This document shows positions 10,094 to 55,397 of a DNA stretch of 64,000 bases, piece by piece. Positions within the stretch are counted from its first letter, which is position 1, and every line of letters starts with the position of its first letter. Under the pieces are notes generated by a model, which was not told the origin of the DNA, searched no databases, and worked only from the letters and a program-made list of their open reading frames with translations. The position numbers and the translations under genes are program-made. The stretch comes from Bacteroidales bacterium (GTDB taxonomy: Bacteria; Bacteroidota; Bacteroidia; Bacteroidales; P3): contig JAGBJI010000008.1 of the NCBI GenBank assembly GCA_017934545.1, forward strand, positions 124,001 to 188,000. Reading direction: 5' to 3'.

Positions 10094-10120
10094 ATTTTCA
10101 TCTTTATTATATAATATAAG

Positions 10121-10160
10121 CACGCAAGGGCAAAAACCTATTGCGTGTTTTTGTTTTTTA
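10121..10160 (+). terminator. Intrinsic terminator
   Basis: CACGCAA (10121-10127) pairs with TTGCGTG (10141-10147), followed by TTTTTGTTTTTT. It ends the beta-barrel unit. Confidence 0.75.
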
Positions 10161-10194
10161 CGGCGTTTTGTGCAGAAAACAAAGAAAAAATACG

Positions 10195-10202
10195 TAACTT
10201 TG
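10195..10202 (+). promoter_or_regulatory. -7 element almost touching the start codon
   Basis: TAACTTTG ends 4 bp before the ATG at 10207. With the usual 4-nt distance the mRNA would start at about 10206, so the transcript would be leaderless or nearly so. Confidence 0.5.
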
Positions 10203-10206
10203 CAAT

Positions 10207-11025
10207 ATGGAAAAATGGGTTACAAGCGTTGACAAAAGCGAAAAAGAAAACAGTGTTACGGACAGTTATGGCGTTGAGTACTCAAAGGATGGCTTGAGGC
10301 TGTTGAGTGCAAGGCATTTGACGCAGAGCGATTACAGAGTGAAAGACGGCGTAAAGGTTATATGCGAAGCGGCGTTTATGGGTGTTATCATATTGAAACA
10401 CATCTCTTTGCCCGATTCAGTTGAAGTGATAGGCAGGGGTGCGTTTTACCACAGCGAAGAGTTGGAAAAAATAGACATGAACCACGGGCTGAAGCTGATA
10501 GAAAGCTGGGCGTTCAGCGGTTGCAAGAAATTGGATAACGTAGTGTTGGTTTCAACGTTGGAAAAGATAGAATTCCCTGCCTTTTCCCGTGACAATGTAA
10601 TGCATTTGACCTGTAAGACCGATAGATATGTGTATTACAAACGGGCGTTGTATACGCCGGACAGAAAGACCTTGTGCGAGTGTTTTACAAGGGGTACAAG
10701 GTTTGTCATTCCCGAGGGAACGGAGAGGATGGAAAGGTACTCTTTGTTTTCGTGCAAAAGGTTGAAAAAGATTTATTTGCCGCATTCACTTAAACATATA
10801 GCGGGTCATTGTGTTTTGGATTTTCATTCCAAAGTGGACGAAGTGTACACGGCACCCAATATGAAACGGCGTGCTGAACAGTTGTTAATAGATATGACGC
10901 ACGATTGGGGCAAAAAAGAGTACAAAATATACGTTGCCAAGGATAAAAACAAGCCTTTTGAGGCGGATAAAAATAATTTTCGTAAATTTGCATTCAGAAA
11001 AGATTTTTTGGGATTCAGAATATAA
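10207..11025 (+). CDS. BspA-type leucine-rich repeat protein, apparently cytoplasmic
   Basis: A 272-residue protein with repeats of the BspA/LRR_5 pattern (VKVICEAAFMGVIILKHISLPDSVEVIGRGAFYHSEELEKI, LKLIESWAFSGCKKLDNVVL, GTERMERYSLFSCKRLKKIYLPHSLKHI). These repeats usually mediate protein binding on the surface, but this protein has no signal peptide. The C-terminal 50 residues are basic and not repeat-like. It may share a transcript with lpdA, 14 bp downstream. A second, secreted member of the family lies at 36248-37657. Confidence 0.8.
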   Translation: MEKWVTSVDKSEKENSVTDSYGVEYSKDGLRLLSARHLTQSDYRVKDGVKVICEAAFMGVIILKHISLPDSVEVIGRGAFYHSEELEKIDMNHGLKLIESWAFSGCKKLDNVVLVSTLEKIEFPAFSRDNVMHLTCKTDRYVYYKRALYTPDRKTLCECFTRGTRFVIPEGTERMERYSLFSCKRLKKIYLPHSLKHIAGHCVLDFHSKVDEVYTAPNMKRRAEQLLIDMTHDWGKKEYKIYVAKDKNKPFEADKNNFRKFAFRKDFLGFRI

Positions 11026-11039
11026 AAACTTAATTTCAT

Positions 11040-12410
11040 ATGGATTACGATATAATAGTAATAGGTGCAGGTCCGGGAGGATATGTTGCAGCAGAAAAAG
11101 CAGCCAAAGCAGGCAAGAAAACATTGTTGGTTGAAAGGGAAAGATTGGGCGGAATATGCTTGAATTGGGGTTGTATACCGACCAAAGCCCTGTTGAAATC
11201 GGCACAGGCATACCATTATGCCGCAAAAGCCGAAGAATACGGCGTAAGCATTGCGGGAGAAGTAAAACCGGATTTCAATAAAATGGTGCAGCGTTCAAGG
11301 AACGTGGCTGACATGATGAACAAAGGCGTGGAGTTTTTGATGAACAAAAGCGGTGTTCAGGTGTTGAAAGGTACGGCTTCGTTGACTGCGGACAAAAAAG
11401 TGGAAGTGATGACCGAAAGCGGCGAAAAACAGTTGTTCTCTGCGGAACACATAATCCTTGCCGTAGGTGCTTCAAGCCGTCAGTTGCCCTCCTTGCCGCA
11501 GGACGGAAAGTATATAATAGGTTACCGTCAGGCTATGACCTTGGAACAACAGCCCAAGAGCATGGTCGTTGTGGGTTCGGGTGCCATAGGAAGCGAGTTC
11601 GCACATTTTTACCAAAGCATAGGAACGCAGGTGACGTTGGTTGAGTTTATGCCGACGATAGTTCCTAACGAAGACAAGGAAACGGCTTCTACGTTGCAGC
11701 GTTGTTTTAAGAAAAACGGAATGAAAGTCTACACCTCCACATCGGTTGAAAAGGTTGACGTAAAGGACGGCAAATGCGTTGTGACGTTAAGCGGCAAAAA
11801 GACCGAAACGGTTGAGTGCGACGTGGTTTTGTCGGCAGTGGGCGTTCAGACCAATTTGCAGGGCTTGGGATTGGAACAGGCAGGCATTCAAACGGAAAAA
11901 GGCAAGGTGATTGTTGACGATTATTACCGTACAAACGTTCAGGGCGTGTACGCAATAGGCGACATAGTACACGGTCCGGCGTTGGCACATGTGGCAAGTG
12001 CGGAAGCAACGGTTTGCGTTGAAAACATATTGGGCAAAGACCCTCAAAAGATAGATTATTCAAACATTCCGGGTTGTACGTATACAACGCCCGAGATAGC
12101 ATCGGTGGGTTTGACCGAAGACAAAGCCAAAGAGCAGGGCTTTGACGTTAAGACGGGCAAATTCATGTTCATGGCTTCGGGTAAGGCTACGGCTGCGGGC
12201 AACCGCGACGGTTTTGTAAAAATAGTGGCTGACAGGGCTACGGACAAAATATTGGGTTGTTCAATGATAGGCGACAACGTTACCGAGATGATAGAAGAAA
12301 TAGTTGTGGCAAGACAGAACAATTTGACGGTCAAACAAATACTGTCCGCCGTACATCCTCACCCTACGATGAGCGAAGGCGTTATGGAAGCCTTGGCTGC
12401 AATGCAATAA
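11040..12410 (+). CDS. lpdA: Dihydrolipoyl dehydrogenase
   Basis: A 456-residue flavoprotein of full length. FAD-binding GAGPGGYVAAEKAAKAG is near the N-terminus, the redox-active disulfide is in GGICLNWGCIPTKALL, the NAD-binding motif is VVVGSGAIGSEFAHFY, the second FAD contact is YAIGDIVHGPALAHVASAE, and the dimer-interface His-Pro-His is in AVHPHPTMSEGVMEA. It reoxidises lipoamide on E2/H-protein components of 2-oxoacid dehydrogenases or the glycine cleavage system. No partner subunits are in the window. Confidence 0.96.
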   Translation: MDYDIIVIGAGPGGYVAAEKAAKAGKKTLLVERERLGGICLNWGCIPTKALLKSAQAYHYAAKAEEYGVSIAGEVKPDFNKMVQRSRNVADMMNKGVEFLMNKSGVQVLKGTASLTADKKVEVMTESGEKQLFSAEHIILAVGASSRQLPSLPQDGKYIIGYRQAMTLEQQPKSMVVVGSGAIGSEFAHFYQSIGTQVTLVEFMPTIVPNEDKETASTLQRCFKKNGMKVYTSTSVEKVDVKDGKCVVTLSGKKTETVECDVVLSAVGVQTNLQGLGLEQAGIQTEKGKVIVDDYYRTNVQGVYAIGDIVHGPALAHVASAEATVCVENILGKDPQKIDYSNIPGCTYTTPEIASVGLTEDKAKEQGFDVKTGKFMFMASGKATAAGNRDGFVKIVADRATDKILGCSMIGDNVTEMIEEIVVARQNNLTVKQILSAVHPHPTMSEGVMEALAAMQ

Positions 12411-50765: not shown

Positions 50766-50806
50766 CAGTTGCAATAGTGCTTAAAAACTTAAAGTAACTA
50801 TTATTT

Positions 50807-51003
50807 CACCTCCAAATAAGACCTGGGAAATCTGTTTTTGGAGTTTTAGGGGAATAATAATTCGGAGTTAAGTTTTAGGAAAGAGAAATCCACATGTATT
50901 AGTTATGTTTGCACCGCTTTCGGTGTAGGCTTTCTATGTGGACAATGGGTTTCTTATTTTTCCTAGGTCTTAACCCGGAGGTGAGTAGAAGAGTTTACAC
51001 CTC
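50807..51003 (+). ncRNA. Large hairpin RNA, possible 6S-type RNA or leader switch
   Basis: CACCTCC (50807-50813) pairs GGAGGTG (50977-50983). AAGACCTGGGAAA (50818-50830) pairs TTTCCTAGGTCTT (50959-50971) with one G-U. CCACAT (50890-50895) pairs ATGTGG (50936-50941), and CACCG/CGGTG (50912-50925) caps the apical hairpin. The overall shape, a long rod with a large internal bubble of about 180 nt, is like 6S RNA. A competing stem GAGGTG (50978-50983) / CACCTC (50998-51003) plus TTTTATTT looks like a terminator that excludes the closing stem. Either a free small RNA ends there, or the peptide operon is controlled by this choice. Confidence 0.55.
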
Positions 51004-51106: not shown

Positions 51107-51424
51107 ATGGAAGAAAAGAAAAACAAACAGGAAGAATTGCAGACAAGACGCGAATTTTTCAAAAAAGCAGCAAAAGGTGTATTGCCTGTATTAGGTGCAA
51201 TCGCATTAGCAAATGTTCCGTTGTTATCTCACGCAATGGAAGAAGGAAAAACTCCTAACGGATGTAACTATGGATGTATGGGTAGTTGCTATGGTTCTTG
51301 TAATGGCGGATGTATGGGTTGTTCAGGGACATGTACTGGAGGATGTTCAGGATGTGGCGGTAATTGTTTTGCAACTTGCGAGGGTTCTTGTTCAAGGGCT
51401 TGTGATAGTAGTTCAATAATTTAA
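51107..51424 (+). CDS. Tat-exported CXXX-repeat precursor peptide
   Basis: A 105-residue protein. Residues 1-43 form a twin-arginine signal (TRREFFKK at 13-20, hydrophobic VLPVLGAIALANVPLL, cleavage after SHA). The mature part is Gly/Ser-rich with 13 Cys at 53, 57, 61, 65, 69, 72, 76, 80, 83, 87, 91, 95 and 99, spaced four apart with two spacings of three. No other Cys is present, so the Cys pattern is the modification target. From memory, TIGRFAM describes CXXX-repeat peptides next to radical SAM maturases. The product's chemistry and role are unknown. Export by Tat implies that modification and folding finish in the cytoplasm. Confidence 0.85.
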   Translation: MEEKKNKQEELQTRREFFKKAAKGVLPVLGAIALANVPLLSHAMEEGKTPNGCNYGCMGSCYGSCNGGCMGCSGTCTGGCSGCGGNCFATCEGSCSRACDSSSII

Positions 51425-51438
51425 TAGATACTATAATT

Positions 51439-51765
51439 ATGATTAATTTTGAAGATTTAGCCCTTGCATTTGAACATTTAGTACAAGATTATACTGGTTG
51501 CAATTATCTTAGGGCAGATTTATTTAGGGCTTGTCCAGATATAGACATTTCAAAAAGTAAAGATTTGAAACAAGCTAAACATTTAGGTGAAATTTTAGCT
51601 TATGTTGAAATTGCTTTATGTAATCTTATGGCAAAATATGAGAAATCTGATAGCGAAAAGTACCATATAATTGAACAATGTAAAGATAATCTGTCAGACA
51701 ATCCTAATTATCAATGCCTGTATGAGACAATTGAGACGTTAAAAGAAAACAAGATTATTGTTTAA
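51439..51765 (+). CDS. Small protein of the peptide-modification cluster
   Basis: A 108-residue, mostly helical acidic protein (MINFEDLALAFEHLVQDYTGCNYLRADLFRACPDIDISKS ... KYHIIEQCKDNLSDNPNYQCLYETIETLKENKIIV). I do not recognise a family. It is 14 bp after the precursor gene and 2 bp before the radical SAM gene, so it is likely a peptide-binding chaperone or adaptor of the pathway (inference from position only). Confidence 0.65.
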   Translation: MINFEDLALAFEHLVQDYTGCNYLRADLFRACPDIDISKSKDLKQAKHLGEILAYVEIALCNLMAKYEKSDSEKYHIIEQCKDNLSDNPNYQCLYETIETLKENKIIV

Positions 51766-51767
51766 CC

Positions 51768-52976
51768 ATGTACAAAGACAATAATATTCAATGGCAAGAA
51801 GGTATGTATAAAAGTATTACCTTTATTGTTACGAAAGATTGTCAGTTGGCTTGTAAATATTGCTACCTTGTGGGGAAAAACGAAAAAGAACGTATGACCT
51901 TTGAGGTAGCAAAACAAGCCATAGACTATATTTTAGCCAGAGAAGAGGAATTTACCGAACAGTCGGTAACGTGGGATTTTATCGGAGGCGAACCTTTCTT
52001 GGAAATAGAGTTGATAGATAAGATTTGCGACTACTTAAAACTGCGGATGTTTGAGTTAAACCACCATTGGTTCAATTCTTACCGCTTCAACTTCTCCACA
52101 AACGGCATAAACTACTCCACCAAAGCCGTACAAGATTACATAAAGAAGAATTTTACACATTTGAGTATAGGAATAACCATTGACGGAACTGAACTTAAGC
52201 ACGATTTAAACCGTGTCTATAAGGTAACAGGCAAAGGCTCTTATCAGGATGTGGTGAAAAATATTCCTTTATGGCTGAAACAGTTCCTAAATGCAGGCAC
52301 CAAGGTAACGATTTCCTCTGCCGACATACCTTATATCAAAGAAAGTGTACTGCATCTGTATTCTCTTGGAATAAAGCAGGTGAATATCAACGTGGTATTC
52401 GAAGACGTTTGGCAGGAAGGCGATGACAAGAGATTCGAGGAGCAATTGATTAGTCTGGCAGATGAAATCATTGACAAGGGATATTATAAGGATTATGCGT
52501 GTTCATTTTTCAGCGAACGTTTAGGCAAACCTTTGGATAAGGTGTTGATGAATCAAAACTGGTGCGGGGCAGGAAAAATGCTCAGTGTGGATGCTCACGG
52601 CAATTTTTACCCATGTACGCGTTTTGCACAGTATTCTCTGCGGGACAAAAAGGCATGGATTATCGGCAATATCAAAGACGGTATTGATAAAAACAAGTTG
52701 CGTCCTTTCCTTTGCTTAGACCGTTGTACTCAAAGTAAACAAGAATGTATTGACTGCGAAGTTGCCGAAGGTTGTGCGTGGTGTCAAGGCGAAAACTACG
52801 ATGCCGCCGAAACTCCTACCATATATCAGCGTTCTACGGCTATATGTAAGATGCACAAGGCGAGAGTTCGGGCGAATAACTACTATTGGAACAAACTTTA
52901 CCGCAAACTTGAGTTAGAGGGTGAGCGTGAAGAGTTTGAGAAGAACAAAAAAGAAGTTAAACATCAAATTTGTTAA
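51768..52976 (+). CDS. Radical SAM/SPASM peptide maturase
   Basis: A 402-residue enzyme. The radical SAM cluster motif CQLACKYCYL has Cys25, Cys29 and Cys32. WDFIGGEPFLE matches the GGEP SAM-binding motif. A C-terminal SPASM region for extra Fe-S clusters follows (CGAGKMLSVDAHGNFYPCTRFAQY, then CLDRCTQSKQECIDCEVAEGCAWCQG and CKMH). SPASM enzymes modify ribosomal peptides, for example by Cys-to-carbon thioether bonds. With a CXXX-rich precursor next door, a thioether-type modification is a reasonable inference. Confidence 0.9.
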   Translation: MYKDNNIQWQEGMYKSITFIVTKDCQLACKYCYLVGKNEKERMTFEVAKQAIDYILAREEEFTEQSVTWDFIGGEPFLEIELIDKICDYLKLRMFELNHHWFNSYRFNFSTNGINYSTKAVQDYIKKNFTHLSIGITIDGTELKHDLNRVYKVTGKGSYQDVVKNIPLWLKQFLNAGTKVTISSADIPYIKESVLHLYSLGIKQVNINVVFEDVWQEGDDKRFEEQLISLADEIIDKGYYKDYACSFFSERLGKPLDKVLMNQNWCGAGKMLSVDAHGNFYPCTRFAQYSLRDKKAWIIGNIKDGIDKNKLRPFLCLDRCTQSKQECIDCEVAEGCAWCQGENYDAAETPTIYQRSTAICKMHKARVRANNYYWNKLYRKLELEGEREEFEKNKKEVKHQIC

Positions 52977-52980
52977 GGTT

Positions 52981-54051
52981 ATGTTACAATATTTAGTTAT
53001 ATTATTAAGTAAGGACAGCGTTTCCTATTGCCACTATGACGCAAGGTTTTCGGACAGTAACGCTGTTAATAGCGATAAGCAGACGGAATGGGCGGAAAAC
53101 AATTTGATAAGTAAAGAAGATTTGAAAGCAGGTATTCTTTTCGCTATGAAAGAAAATCTGAACATTCAATTTGTTTATCCGAAAAAGGAGCTGCCGCAGG
53201 ATTATAAGGACATAATACATACTATTGACCATACGGATATACGCCATATTTCAGCAAAAACTAATCCTGCCGCAAAAGGATCTGACCAAACGGAAGTGCT
53301 TTTGCAGGATACGGTATGGATTGCGGACAGTATAAAGGAATTTACTCAAAGTAATCTGACGGATAAGAAAGTTGCGGTTATAAGGTGTGATAAGGAAGAA
53401 TTATTATCGCATTTCAGAAAAATCTCTTGCGAAGAGACTGAAATCTCATGCGAAGAGACGGCCGTCCCATGCGAAGAGATTTTCGGGATAAATGAAAAGA
53501 CTTCTTTGGAAAGGATAAATATCGTAATAAAAGATATTGATACTTTTACAGATAGCGATTTTACGGAATACAAGTCGGTGCTTAGCAAGATTTCTTTGGC
53601 TCTTGAAAGAATTTATAAGCAAGGAAAATTCCTGCAAATCAATATTCTGACTGACAGAATTATGCTTGACAAGATGAATAACTGCAATGCAGGGGATAAT
53701 AACTTAACATTGGCTCCTGACGGCAGATTTTATATTTGTCCTGCGTTTTACTATTCGGGTGAGGAGGCTGTCGGCGATTTGCAGACGGGAATTGATATAA
53801 AAAATCCGCAACTTTACCGCTTGGAGTACGCTCCTTTGTGCCGTGAGTGCGACAGTTATCATTGCAAAAGGTGTGTTTGGCTGAATAAGAAAACAACATT
53901 GGAAGTCAATACCCCGTCTCATGAGCAGTGTGTGGTAAGTCATTTGGAAAGGAACGCATCAAGGGAATTTCTTTTGAGAACAAAGATTTTTGACAAGGAA
54001 ATAAAGGAAATTGATTACTTAGACCCGTTTGACGTTAGGAAACAATGGTAA
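52981..54051 (+). CDS. Second CXXX-peptide maturase, SPASM-like without a radical SAM core motif
   Basis: A 356-residue protein. It has no CxxxCxxC in its N-terminal half, but the C-terminal part has SPASM-like cysteines (CNAGDNNLTLAPDGRFYICPAFYYSG, then LCRECDSYHCKRCVWLNKK and HEQC). It may hold iron-sulfur clusters and act with the radical SAM enzyme. A 21-bp triplication near 53425-53490 encodes ISCEETE-ISCEETA-VPCEEIF, adding three Cys. The frame opens earlier at GTG 52921, inside the previous gene, but ATG 52981 is the more natural start. TIGRFAM lists a 'CXXX repeat peptide maturase' that I believe this is. Confidence 0.75.
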   Translation: MLQYLVILLSKDSVSYCHYDARFSDSNAVNSDKQTEWAENNLISKEDLKAGILFAMKENLNIQFVYPKKELPQDYKDIIHTIDHTDIRHISAKTNPAAKGSDQTEVLLQDTVWIADSIKEFTQSNLTDKKVAVIRCDKEELLSHFRKISCEETEISCEETAVPCEEIFGINEKTSLERINIVIKDIDTFTDSDFTEYKSVLSKISLALERIYKQGKFLQINILTDRIMLDKMNNCNAGDNNLTLAPDGRFYICPAFYYSGEEAVGDLQTGIDIKNPQLYRLEYAPLCRECDSYHCKRCVWLNKKTTLEVNTPSHEQCVVSHLERNASREFLLRTKIFDKEIKEIDYLDPFDVRKQW

Positions 54052-54073
54052 AATTTTTTAAATATTTATTGCA

Positions 54074-54343
54074 ATGAAAAGAAAAGTAGGACAGGTAACA
54101 ACAGAAGAGAAGAATGCAATCCAACAACTCTTTGAACGCAGAAACGGACTTAGCGAATTGTCTAAAGTTTTGACGGCAGACAATACGGAATTGTACGAAA
54201 AGTTAGTAAAAGATATGGGCTTTACTTCCGCAAAATTTCAGCAGTGGTGGAATGATACGTCTGCCAAATATAAATGGGAAGGAGCGGAAAACGGCAATTG
54301 GGAAATAAATTTTGAAACTTGTGAAATCTTTTTAAATTGTTAG
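54074..54343 (+). CDS. Small CXXX-peptide modification system protein
   Basis: An 89-residue protein (KRKVGQVTTEEKNAIQQLFERRNGLSELSKVLTADNTELYEKLV, then a Trp-rich end FQQWWNDTSAKYKWEGAENGNWEINFETCEIFLNC). It fits, from memory, the short 'CXXX repeat peptide modification system protein' family; the assignment rests mostly on gene context. It is 22 bp after the second maturase and 6 bp before tatA. Confidence 0.65.
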   Translation: MKRKVGQVTTEEKNAIQQLFERRNGLSELSKVLTADNTELYEKLVKDMGFTSAKFQQWWNDTSAKYKWEGAENGNWEINFETCEIFLNC

Positions 54344-54349
54344 AGGCTT

Positions 54350-54613
54350 ATGATACATATACCTTTATTGATGATAGGCACTACCGAATTGTTAGTTATA
54401 GGCGGTGCGGTGTTGTTGCTTTTCGGCGGAAAGAAAATCCCAGAACTTATGCGTTCTTTGGGTAGCGGTGTCAAGGAATTTAAACAAGGAATGAACGAAG
54501 TTACCAATCCTGACACTGACAAGCAAAAAGAAGAAACCAAAGAGGAAGATTCTTCAAAGGAAAACCAACAACCGCAGCAGGAAACCGCAACCGATGACGG
54601 CAAAGAGGGATAA
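54350..54613 (+). CDS. tatA: Twin-arginine translocase subunit TatA/TatE type
   Basis: An 87-residue protein with one N-terminal transmembrane helix ([18 protein letters not shown]), the hinge [13 protein letters not shown], an amphipathic helix ([11 protein letters not shown]) and a charged Gln/Glu-rich tail. TatA forms the protein-conducting part of the Tat system. It lies inside the peptide cluster and overlaps tatC by 20 bp, which ties this Tat system to the Tat-signal precursor at 51107. Confidence 0.92.
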
Positions 54614-55397
54614 CAAGGTGCAGAAGCTTACATTCTCGGGGCATCTTGACGTATTTCGTAAGATGCTCTTGAGAATTATTGCCGTCAGTGGCGTATTGTC
54701 TGCATTGATATTTATAAATAAGCAGACGACATTTGATATTCTCTTCGCTCCGAGGGAATGGAATTTCATTACTTACCGATTAATAGAAAGTCTTTTGCAA
54801 ACTTGCGGCATTGACTTTCATTTTCAGCCTTACCATGTCAAGATGATAAGTACTGATTTGTCCGCTCAATTTATGATGCACCTGTCTACATCGCTTTATC
54901 TCGGACTTTTGCTGTCTTCTCCTTACATAATGTTTGAGTTATTCCGCTTCGTACTGCCTGCATTATACGAAAAAGAGAAGAAATCTTCGGTATTGGTTGC
55001 CGTAAGTATGTACATGCTGTTCGCAATGGGCGTTTTGATGAATTATTTTGTAATCTTCCCCGTGTCTTTTCGGTTCTTGGGGACTTACAGTGTGGATCCG
55101 TCGGTGGAAAGTACGATAACGCTGGCATCATATATCAAAACATTTTCCACTCTTACCTTTGTGCTTGGACTGATATTCCAATTGCCGATAGTGTCTTATA
55201 TCCTTGCGAAAATGAATGTAATTCAGGCGGAATTTCTTTCGCACTACCGCAAACACGCATTCATAATTATTTTGGTAGTGTCCGCAATCATCACTCCGCC
55301 TGACCTATTCACGTTGTTTTTAGTAACAATCCCGATGTATTTGTTATATGAAATTTGCATAATCATCGCAAAACGGGTACGCAAAACAGAAGAGTAG
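54594..55397 (+). CDS. tatC: Twin-arginine translocase subunit TatC
   Basis: A 267-residue membrane protein. It has the cytoplasmic TatC N-terminus ([18 protein letters not shown]) and six predicted helices: about 18-38, 95-120, 130-155, 180-205, 215-232 and 235-255. [23 protein letters not shown] and the C-terminal [29 protein letters not shown] are typical. TatC recognises the twin-arginine motif. It is translationally coupled to tatA. No tatB is present, as in minimal TatAC systems. Confidence 0.94.

Follow-up and report, generated by a model that had tools for sequence, protein, structure and literature searches.

Among described systems, the CXXX-repeat peptide system defined by NCBIfam models stands closest to an operon that we analyzed at positions 51107–55397 of a 64,000-nucleotide stretch of DNA, hereafter the window, from a member of the Bacteroidales (assembly GCA_017934545.1, contig JAGBJI010000008.1, positions 124,001–188,000 of the forward strand; the genome measures 2.38 Mb over 14 contigs). 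The two share a radical S-adenosylmethionine (SAM) enzyme, a partner and a helper protein, all over their family cut-offs, together with a CXXX precursor and gene adjacency; they differ in that the precursor of the window falls below the TIGR04117 cut-off. In a comparison with the models themselves, the maturation families were already named, and what is new is the linkage to tatA and tatC (tatAC) of the twin-arginine translocation (Tat) pathway, a specialized TatC and a conserved leader element. An earlier sequence-only reading of the window had stated that these families are named while no product has been described; our literature searches, which did not cover preprints and most subscription journals, agree with this and found no paper naming the TIGR model numbers of the CXXX families. 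We propose that the peptide acquires cross-links in the cytoplasm and is then exported in folded form by the operon's own TatAC, a reading that we consider probable, with its chemistry and function being predictions.

Several characterized systems share some of these traits. The Bacillus TatAd–TatCd translocase is linked to PhoD, also in its gene neighborhood, and has an ordinary enzyme as its substrate, and QhpD acts on a single protein substrate that is exported after modification. With the former, the window system shares the use of a second TatC isoform for particular substrates (PMC3827258), but the presumed cargo in the window is a repeat peptide accompanied by maturation genes, and our comparison of TatC position 170 (below) is confined to TatCs from outside Bacillus. 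With QhpD it shares radical SAM thioether formation (PMC5682303), predicted in the window; the CXXX repeat has no counterpart in the QhpD system, whose model gives 106 bits on the window's radical SAM protein against a cut-off of 453. PapB, a ranthipeptide maturase, is likewise a radical SAM enzyme with a SPASM domain acting on a Cys-rich peptide, and its Cys-X3-Asp/Glu is the closest characterized substrate motif (PMC9413430). The PapB model (NF047865) gives 200.2 bits, short of its cut-off of 340, which leaves the window's enzyme outside the PapB family model; relative to PapB and to the maturase with the solved structure 5wgg, a SPASM-only partner and a Tat-type leader are features of the window system.

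Among ribosomally synthesized and post-translationally modified peptides (RiPPs), a signal peptide as leader has been called highly unusual, with Sec export in the natural host shown for the bufferins only (PMC12452194). Bufferins and oxazolins, which are MNIO-modified RiPPs, resemble the window system in their Cys-rich precursor, export-signal leader and extracytoplasmic product (PMC12452194); they, however, combine a Sec signal with an MNIO enzyme, whereas the window system has a Tat signal, a radical SAM enzyme and its own translocase. None of the eight operon-region proteins matched an MNIO family in NCBIfam or Pfam, in a search made on these proteins and not genome-wide, and the operon thus shows neither the Sec signal nor the MNIO gene of a bufferin system. 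Nisin, a modified RiPP, has been carried folded by Tat in an engineered phage display system (PMC11048544), as an artificial phage coat fusion without a natural Tat leader or its own translocase. A survey of Bacteroidales RiPP clusters (PMC10352776) contains no Tat or CXXX term, and none of the titles and abstracts of the matches listed dealt with a radical SAM peptide that is exported by Tat in nature, an earlier notice being possible given the coverage described above. Peptide modification joined to its own specialized Tat exporter appears to have no earlier description among those matches.

The seven genes that the sequence-only reading had called between 51107 and 55397 were all found in place on the + strand. 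They run in the order precursor, 108-residue open reading frame (ORF), radical SAM/SPASM enzyme, SPASM-only partner, 89-residue protein, tatA and tatC, with short gaps or overlaps between them:

50786–50975, + strand: 5' leader region of the operon, with a strong RNA fold; bounds set by eye
51107–51424, + strand: precursor, 105 residues; Tat-type leader (TRREFFKKAAKGVLPVLG), then a 13-Cys CXXX/CXX core
51439–51765, + strand: orphan ORF, 108 residues, probably no conserved part of the system
51768–52976, + strand: radical SAM/SPASM peptide maturase (TIGR04115); best PDB profile match 5wgg
52981–54051, + strand: CXXX-repeat peptide maturase with a SPASM-like domain (TIGR04119; profile alignment)
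54074–54343, + strand: modification-system protein, 89 residues (TIGR04116)
54350–54613, + strand: cluster tatA (TIGR01411, PF02416)
54594–55397, + strand: cluster tatC, a specialized paralogue (PF00902, TIGR00945), overlapping the end of tatA

The precursor, both maturases, the helper and the two tat genes together make up a single compact operon. In NCBIfam, the radical SAM maturase scores 629.6 bits against TIGR04115 (cut-off 350), the second maturase 243 bits against TIGR04119 (cut-off 150) and the 89-residue helper 95.3 bits against TIGR04116 (cut-off 50), placing each in its family and bearing out the sequence-only reading that TIGRFAM names exist for them. Both Tat subunits also belong to their families: TatA reaches 64.3 bits with TIGR01411 (cut-off 53.9) and 52.6 with PF02416 (cut-off 21), and TatC 144.3 with TIGR00945 (cut-off 132.7) and 187.4 with PF00902 (cut-off 25.1). 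The precursor stays below the cut-offs of TIGR04117 (43.7 against 50) and TIGR04114 (15 against 20), its CXXX periodicity being present nonetheless.

Across the order, TIGR04119 exceeds its cut-off in 12 of 393 Bacteroidales genomes (the order sample), and TIGR04115 does so in six of 395 genomes taken phylum-wide, the window's genome being included in both counts. For comparison of gene order we used the best 80 of 474 relatives recovered by scanning genome contigs with an alignment of the radical SAM protein. These come mostly from metagenome-assembled genomes (MAGs) of gut and rumen, with a few named strains (Xylanibacter rarus, Bacteroides sp. GM023, B. congonensis and Hoylesella loescheii An865). 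Of the 80, 64 retain the order precursor(s), maturases, 89-residue protein, tatA, tatC, with six contigs ending too early and ten loci having no tatAC; where the order is visible, it is thus retained in 64 of 74 loci. Within the order sample, tatAC lies directly downstream in nine of the 12 cluster genomes, the window's included. Two genomes, G791 (L254) and G825 (L264), carry two CXXX clusters each, only one of which has tatAC in G791.

The twin arginine noticed in the sequence-only reading is present at R14–R15 of the window's precursor, within TRREFFKK, and so is the regular cysteine spacing, with 13 Cys between residues 53 and 99 at steps of 4, 4, 4, 4, 3, 4, 4, 3, 4, 4, 4 and 4. A set of 144 distinct related precursors, including that of the window, was selected for RRxF[FILMV] and at least six Cys, with start codons assigned mechanically by script; phenylalanine at +3 is therefore present by construction, and the remaining leader positions are unconstrained. 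Their leader consensus reads S-R-R-E-F-F-K-K-A-A-K-x-x-L-P-I-L-G, with a mean pairwise identity over these 18 positions of 63%, a figure raised by the RRxF selection. Proline at +13 occurs in 96% of the 144 (139/150 under a looser RR rule) and in none of 25 ordinary Tat signals; these controls were 30 ORFs from ordinary Tat-signal places less five un-Tat-like ones, and one of the excluded five, a spurious ORF, does have proline at +13. The RR pair stands in a Tat-like context, with a hydrophobic stretch after it, in 150 of 155 precursor ORFs. Five ORFs lack RR in place (L143, 6539; L159, 140; L177, 1050; L180, 9193; L196, 5979): for some of these the start may be miscalled or cut, L180 resembles another protein, and in L196 the RR is displaced.

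Over the same 144 precursors, neighboring Cys are exactly four residues apart in 2383 of 2744 steps (87%), against a mean of 10.5% and a maximum of 11.8% in 50 shuffles of the cores. Each precursor holds between six core Cys (the lower limit of the script) and 74. The residues between them are mostly small and acids are few, with Asp and Glu at 2–5% each at +1 to +3, and the residue directly before the next Cys is Ser, Gly or Thr in 70%, which makes these three the candidate cross-link acceptors. The core is highly variable, its 2390 units comprising 892 distinct XXX triplets, and more than one precursor is found in 41 of 75 loci, with up to six in a single locus; a conserved leader, a variable core and multiple precursors fit what would be a RiPP family.

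Four clusters have precursors without RR. Three of these, of Chlorobia type (L035, L036, L037), retain KTLPG and have an ABC transporter after the maturases; their very short, near-invariant Cys core ends in GGQCLSGCKDECITVSK and has five CXXX-spaced Cys (four in L036). The fourth, G431, has an adjoining ABC transporter and subtilase, and its short leader shows no Leu-Pro. All four combine an ABC transporter with the lack of tatAC in the fetched stretch, so that export type and signal type change together. Because the Leu-Pro element is kept without Tat in three of the four, its conservation suggests an enzyme recognition site within the leader.

The radical SAM protein carries CX3CX2C at C25/C29/C32 and seven SPASM-type Cys (C266, C283, C327, C330, C336, C339 and C360), all of them invariant in 16 aligned sequences including the window's. 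Searched against the PDB, its profile matches best with 5wgg (E 2.6e-36, profile positions 13–371 of 398), which we take to be CteB. CteB forms Cys–Thr thioethers (PMC10352776), and by analogy with such enzyme relatives the CXXX peptides are predicted to be cross-linked at Cys. The SPASM-only partner has seven invariant SPASM-type Cys plus C17 and no CX3CX2C motif in an alignment of 19, and its profile, in a comparison that excludes the fused protein of L071, aligns at a probability of 83.4% with the radical SAM protein's C-terminal part, where the SPASM region lies. The 89-residue protein has 24 invariant columns over 50 sequences; PDB sequence searches with partner and helper gave no credible match. 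In L071 (6101–8266) the radical SAM protein is fused to the SPASM-only partner, and in L033 (4436–5968) and L034 (4726–6258) the partner is fused to the 89-residue protein; these fusions suggest that the three maturation proteins form a working complex. One cluster, L169, contains partial second copies of the partner, the 89-residue protein and tatA (10117–11739).

Turning to the translocase, Glu103 of TatC binds the second arginine of the signal. Glu15 contacts the first arginine via water (PMC13323110), and the E170A change inactivates the Escherichia coli Tat system, with E170 proposed to act at substrate transfer to TatA (PMC10092561). We built a tree of 94 TatC sequences (70 from clusters, six housekeeping partners and 18 others) by a quick method with Shimodaira–Hasegawa-like approximate likelihood ratio (SH-aLRT) support. 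It places 55 cluster TatCs, the window's included, on one branch with a support of 99 and no housekeeping TatC inside. At position 170, in E. coli numbering, this branch has Gln in 53, Leu in one and one unread, whereas Glu is found in all 24 non-cluster TatCs and all 15 other cluster TatCs of the tree. A further 39 non-cluster TatCs have Glu170 in 35 and Gln170 in four, giving Glu170 in 59 of 63 non-cluster TatCs overall. The TatC of the window, with Q170, V15 and E103, lacks the conserved E170 of Tat translocases, and Glu103 is present in 94 of 94 aligned TatCs. To judge from the tree, a general tatAC was likely captured into the operon and then specialized. The four non-cluster TatCs with Gln170 belong to one subtype (L255, L259, L260 and L265, from G791, G801, G810 and G825), seen beside a transporter-like gene, MATE-like by eye, and possibly represent another specialized Tat system.

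The genome of the window also has a second, ordinary tatAC at C5:60976–61853, followed downstream by a 4Fe-4S protein and then an RR protein of 472 residues that carries an aldo/keto reductase domain. The assembly (G000) shows 8.1% contamination, which we considered as the origin of this second tatAC and rejected: the tetranucleotide profile of its contig matches the window at 0.94–0.96, as parts of the window match one another, with nine other loci at 0.81 or less, so the second tatAC is unlikely to be foreign. TIGR01409 marks three places in this genome, of which two lie in copies of the same duplicated sequence, an identical 3075-base stretch with a Tat-signal protein at C4:144793 (L113) and C7:137353 (L119) that is either a repeat or an assembly duplication. 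The sequence-only reading had held that, if the genome encoded several unrelated Tat substrates, the Tat genes would be general; such substrates are formally there, as the TIGR01409 places and the RR protein, and dedication is not refuted by them because they can use the C5 tatAC.

At least two TatC matches occur in six of the 12 cluster genomes of the order sample versus 17 of the 381 others (Fisher p 1.5e-5), and the cluster TatC stands alone in three of nine genomes of that sample. Genome TatC counts were extended to 50 of the 78 loci that remained, namely each of the ten without tatAC and 40 with it; among the 40 tat-cluster genomes reached in this way, 31 have at least two TatC matches and nine have the cluster TatC alone. 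Xylanibacter rarus 109 (L143) has two TatCs over cut-off plus a weak match, and Hoylesella loescheii An865 (L200) is a carrier with the cluster TatC alone. Eight of the 12 sole-TatC genomes have the Gln170 form. A TIGR01409 signal over cut-off is found in three of these 12 versus 18 of 23 two-TatC genomes (p 0.0038), the 23 being 17 of the 31 reached via loci and six of the order sample; in G800, which is among the 18, the signal depends on a frame of 65 codons, and CXXX precursors may account for some of the extra TIGR01409 matches. The scarcity of other Tat signals in sole-TatC genomes is a trend and not proof, because TIGR01409 has low sensitivity and incomplete genomes are numerous.

It could be that the tatAC of the cluster serves as another general Tat system and just happens to be located in the operon, with the CXXX precursor as one of several clients of either translocase, and although we judge this rather unlikely, a number of observations tell against strict dedication, some of them speaking for it. 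Fifteen of the 70 cluster TatCs lie outside the specialized branch, among or beside ordinary TatCs, and keep Glu170; the sole TatCs of G433, G767 and G772 are among them. Gln170 is also weakened as a unique marker by the four non-cluster TatCs that have it, so that with 15/70 cluster TatCs keeping Glu170 and 4/39 non-cluster TatCs having Gln170 the signature is neither required nor exclusive. The loss of Glu15 fares worse, and we rejected it as a marker of dedication: position 15 is Val or Ala in 70 of 70 cluster TatCs, but the loss is frequent in housekeeping TatCs too, with no acid there in 21 of the 39 further non-cluster TatCs or in three of the six housekeeping and three of the 18 other TatCs of the tree. 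All three sole-TatC genomes with another TIGR01409 signal (G796, G802 and G804) have the specialized Gln170 TatC, which may therefore carry other cargo. In addition, ten loci have maturases and no tatAC; the nine of these with a visible precursor keep RR leaders, and in eight of the ten a TatC is found elsewhere in the genome, as in G791, whose second CXXX cluster holds one of its two TatCs. The comparison of Tat signals is itself softened by the insensitivity of TIGR01409, which missed the RR protein near the C5 tatAC, and by the many incomplete MAGs. Against a merely general system stand the clade of 55, which has its residue at position 170 and contains no housekeeping TatC, the lack of any further Tat signal over cut-off in nine of the 12 sole-TatC genomes, and the gene order kept in 64 of 74 observable loci. 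Dedication of TatAC, as claimed in the sequence-only reading, is supported by gene order, the second tatAC and a cluster-only TatC clade with a residue signature; strict exclusivity is not, given the three exceptions among 12.

The chemistry of the core admits another interpretation, which we regard as unlikely, namely that the Cys-rich core binds a metal or a cluster with which it is loaded before export, in the cytoplasm, with Tat preserving a metal site instead of a thioether and the radical SAM enzyme introducing some other change, such as ligand formation or epimerization. Six to 74 core Cys in a strict four-residue repeat would suit ligand arrays, and the absence of the PapB acceptor motif from CXXX cores counts for this interpretation and weighs against our own: the +4 position is itself Cys in 87% of steps, and with Cys every four residues and few acids the Cys-X3-Asp/Glu bond of PapB cannot be the rule here. 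On the other side, the characterized enzyme relatives (PapB, and 5wgg, presumably CteB) make thioethers, and none of the three neighbor families that recur in at least five of 77 loci indicates metals. Bufferins provide a precedent for metal binding, as signal-peptide-bearing, Cys-modified RiPPs that bind periplasmic copper (PMC12452194). We hold it to be very improbable that the RR motif belongs to an enzyme-recognition leader only and that the peptide does not travel by Tat; leader conservation does exceed the needs of Tat in its Leu-Pro and persists where RR is lost, but RR has its Tat-like context and following hydrophobic stretch in 150 of 155 precursor ORFs, tatAC lies in the same operon as the precursor, and an ABC transporter replaces tatAC in the four clusters without RR.

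Cytoplasmic cross-linking followed by folded export through its own TatAC would make this a RiPP-like maturation and export operon. Its leader, with the conserved Lys-x-x-Leu-Pro, would be a twin-arginine signal and a maturase recognition site at once. The radical SAM/SPASM enzyme, the SPASM-only partner and the 89-residue protein would then work along the CXXX repeat and, if they act like their enzyme relatives, bond Cys sulfur to a carbon of small neighbors, giving a compact chain of short loops. Such a rigid core, which presumably cannot be unfolded for Sec, would leave through the operon's own TatAC, a specialized paralogue, instead of the housekeeping translocase; since Tat prefers folded cargo, export may double as a check on finished modification. 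Signal peptidase I would remove the leader, that of the window's precursor included, so that no leader peptidase gene would be needed.

In some relatives a lipobox, in part with a surface-export signal, would instead lead to anchoring in the envelope. Such a lipobox stands at the leader end in 43 of the 144 precursors, by a pattern that was loosened after the data had been seen, and 11 of the 43 carry C-X-(K/R)-(D/E)2, close to the Capnocytophaga surface-export signal C-X-K-(D/E)2 (PMC5080379). A link between lipobox precursors and a missing local tatAC is not relied on: among loci with scorable precursors, only lipobox precursors are found in 8/9 without tatAC versus 8/58 with it (p 1.6e-5), and a tree-based test, which yielded only four supported independent pairs, an average of 3.1 of them showing no difference, did not uphold it. 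The joint reading, in which a dual Tat and recognition leader, a co-evolved Gln170 TatAC, a folded-cargo checkpoint passing only fully modified, rod-like peptides and surface display of lipidated forms all go together, is put forward tentatively, as somewhat less probable than not. Antagonism, metal binding and a structural role in the envelope are candidate functions.

Around the maturation genes, the 108-residue ORF was the single member of the cluster proposed in the sequence-only reading that did not stand, in contrast to the precursor, the radical SAM enzyme, the SPASM-only partner, the helper, tatA and tatC. It has no NCBIfam family, no convincing Pfam family and no match in the 80 related loci, and beyond itself it finds only five weak matches (30–34% identity) in the 393 Bacteroidales genomes, three of them with in-frame stops; we reject it as a conserved cluster member and treat it as an orphan. 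Other loci (L195, L174, L178, L199 and others) have varied small exported or lipoprotein-like proteins between the precursor and maturase genes, for example one with an SH3 domain. The three recurrent neighbor families are an SH3-domain protein, one that matches nothing in Pfam and one whose only match stays below cut-off, and give no clear hint of function in the 77 loci surveyed. L137 is omitted from this survey, as are L151 and L194, which lie on the same contigs as L081 and L074 and also do not enter the tree of TatCs, the lipobox counts by locus or the TatC counts by genome.

Upstream of the precursor, the RNA of 50786–50975, a stretch picked by eye, folds into a long hairpin with a minimum free energy of -54.7 kcal/mol (z -4.07 against 200 shuffles). 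An Rfam search of the 5' leader reported nothing within 50786–50975 and three sub-threshold microRNA matches upstream, a repeat search reported no inverted repeat there, and the fetched relatives have no copy of it. The hairpin could be an attenuator or another regulator.

If the proposed reading is true, this operon belongs to a natural RiPP-type peptide family with its own Tat translocase, offering a small natural cargo with which to probe what Tat senses as folded. It would also provide a natural TatC without the Glu170 that E. coli TatC needs, making the role of this residue directly testable. Given its spread over the Bacteroidales (12/393), an uncharacterized modified peptide would be common in gut and rumen communities.

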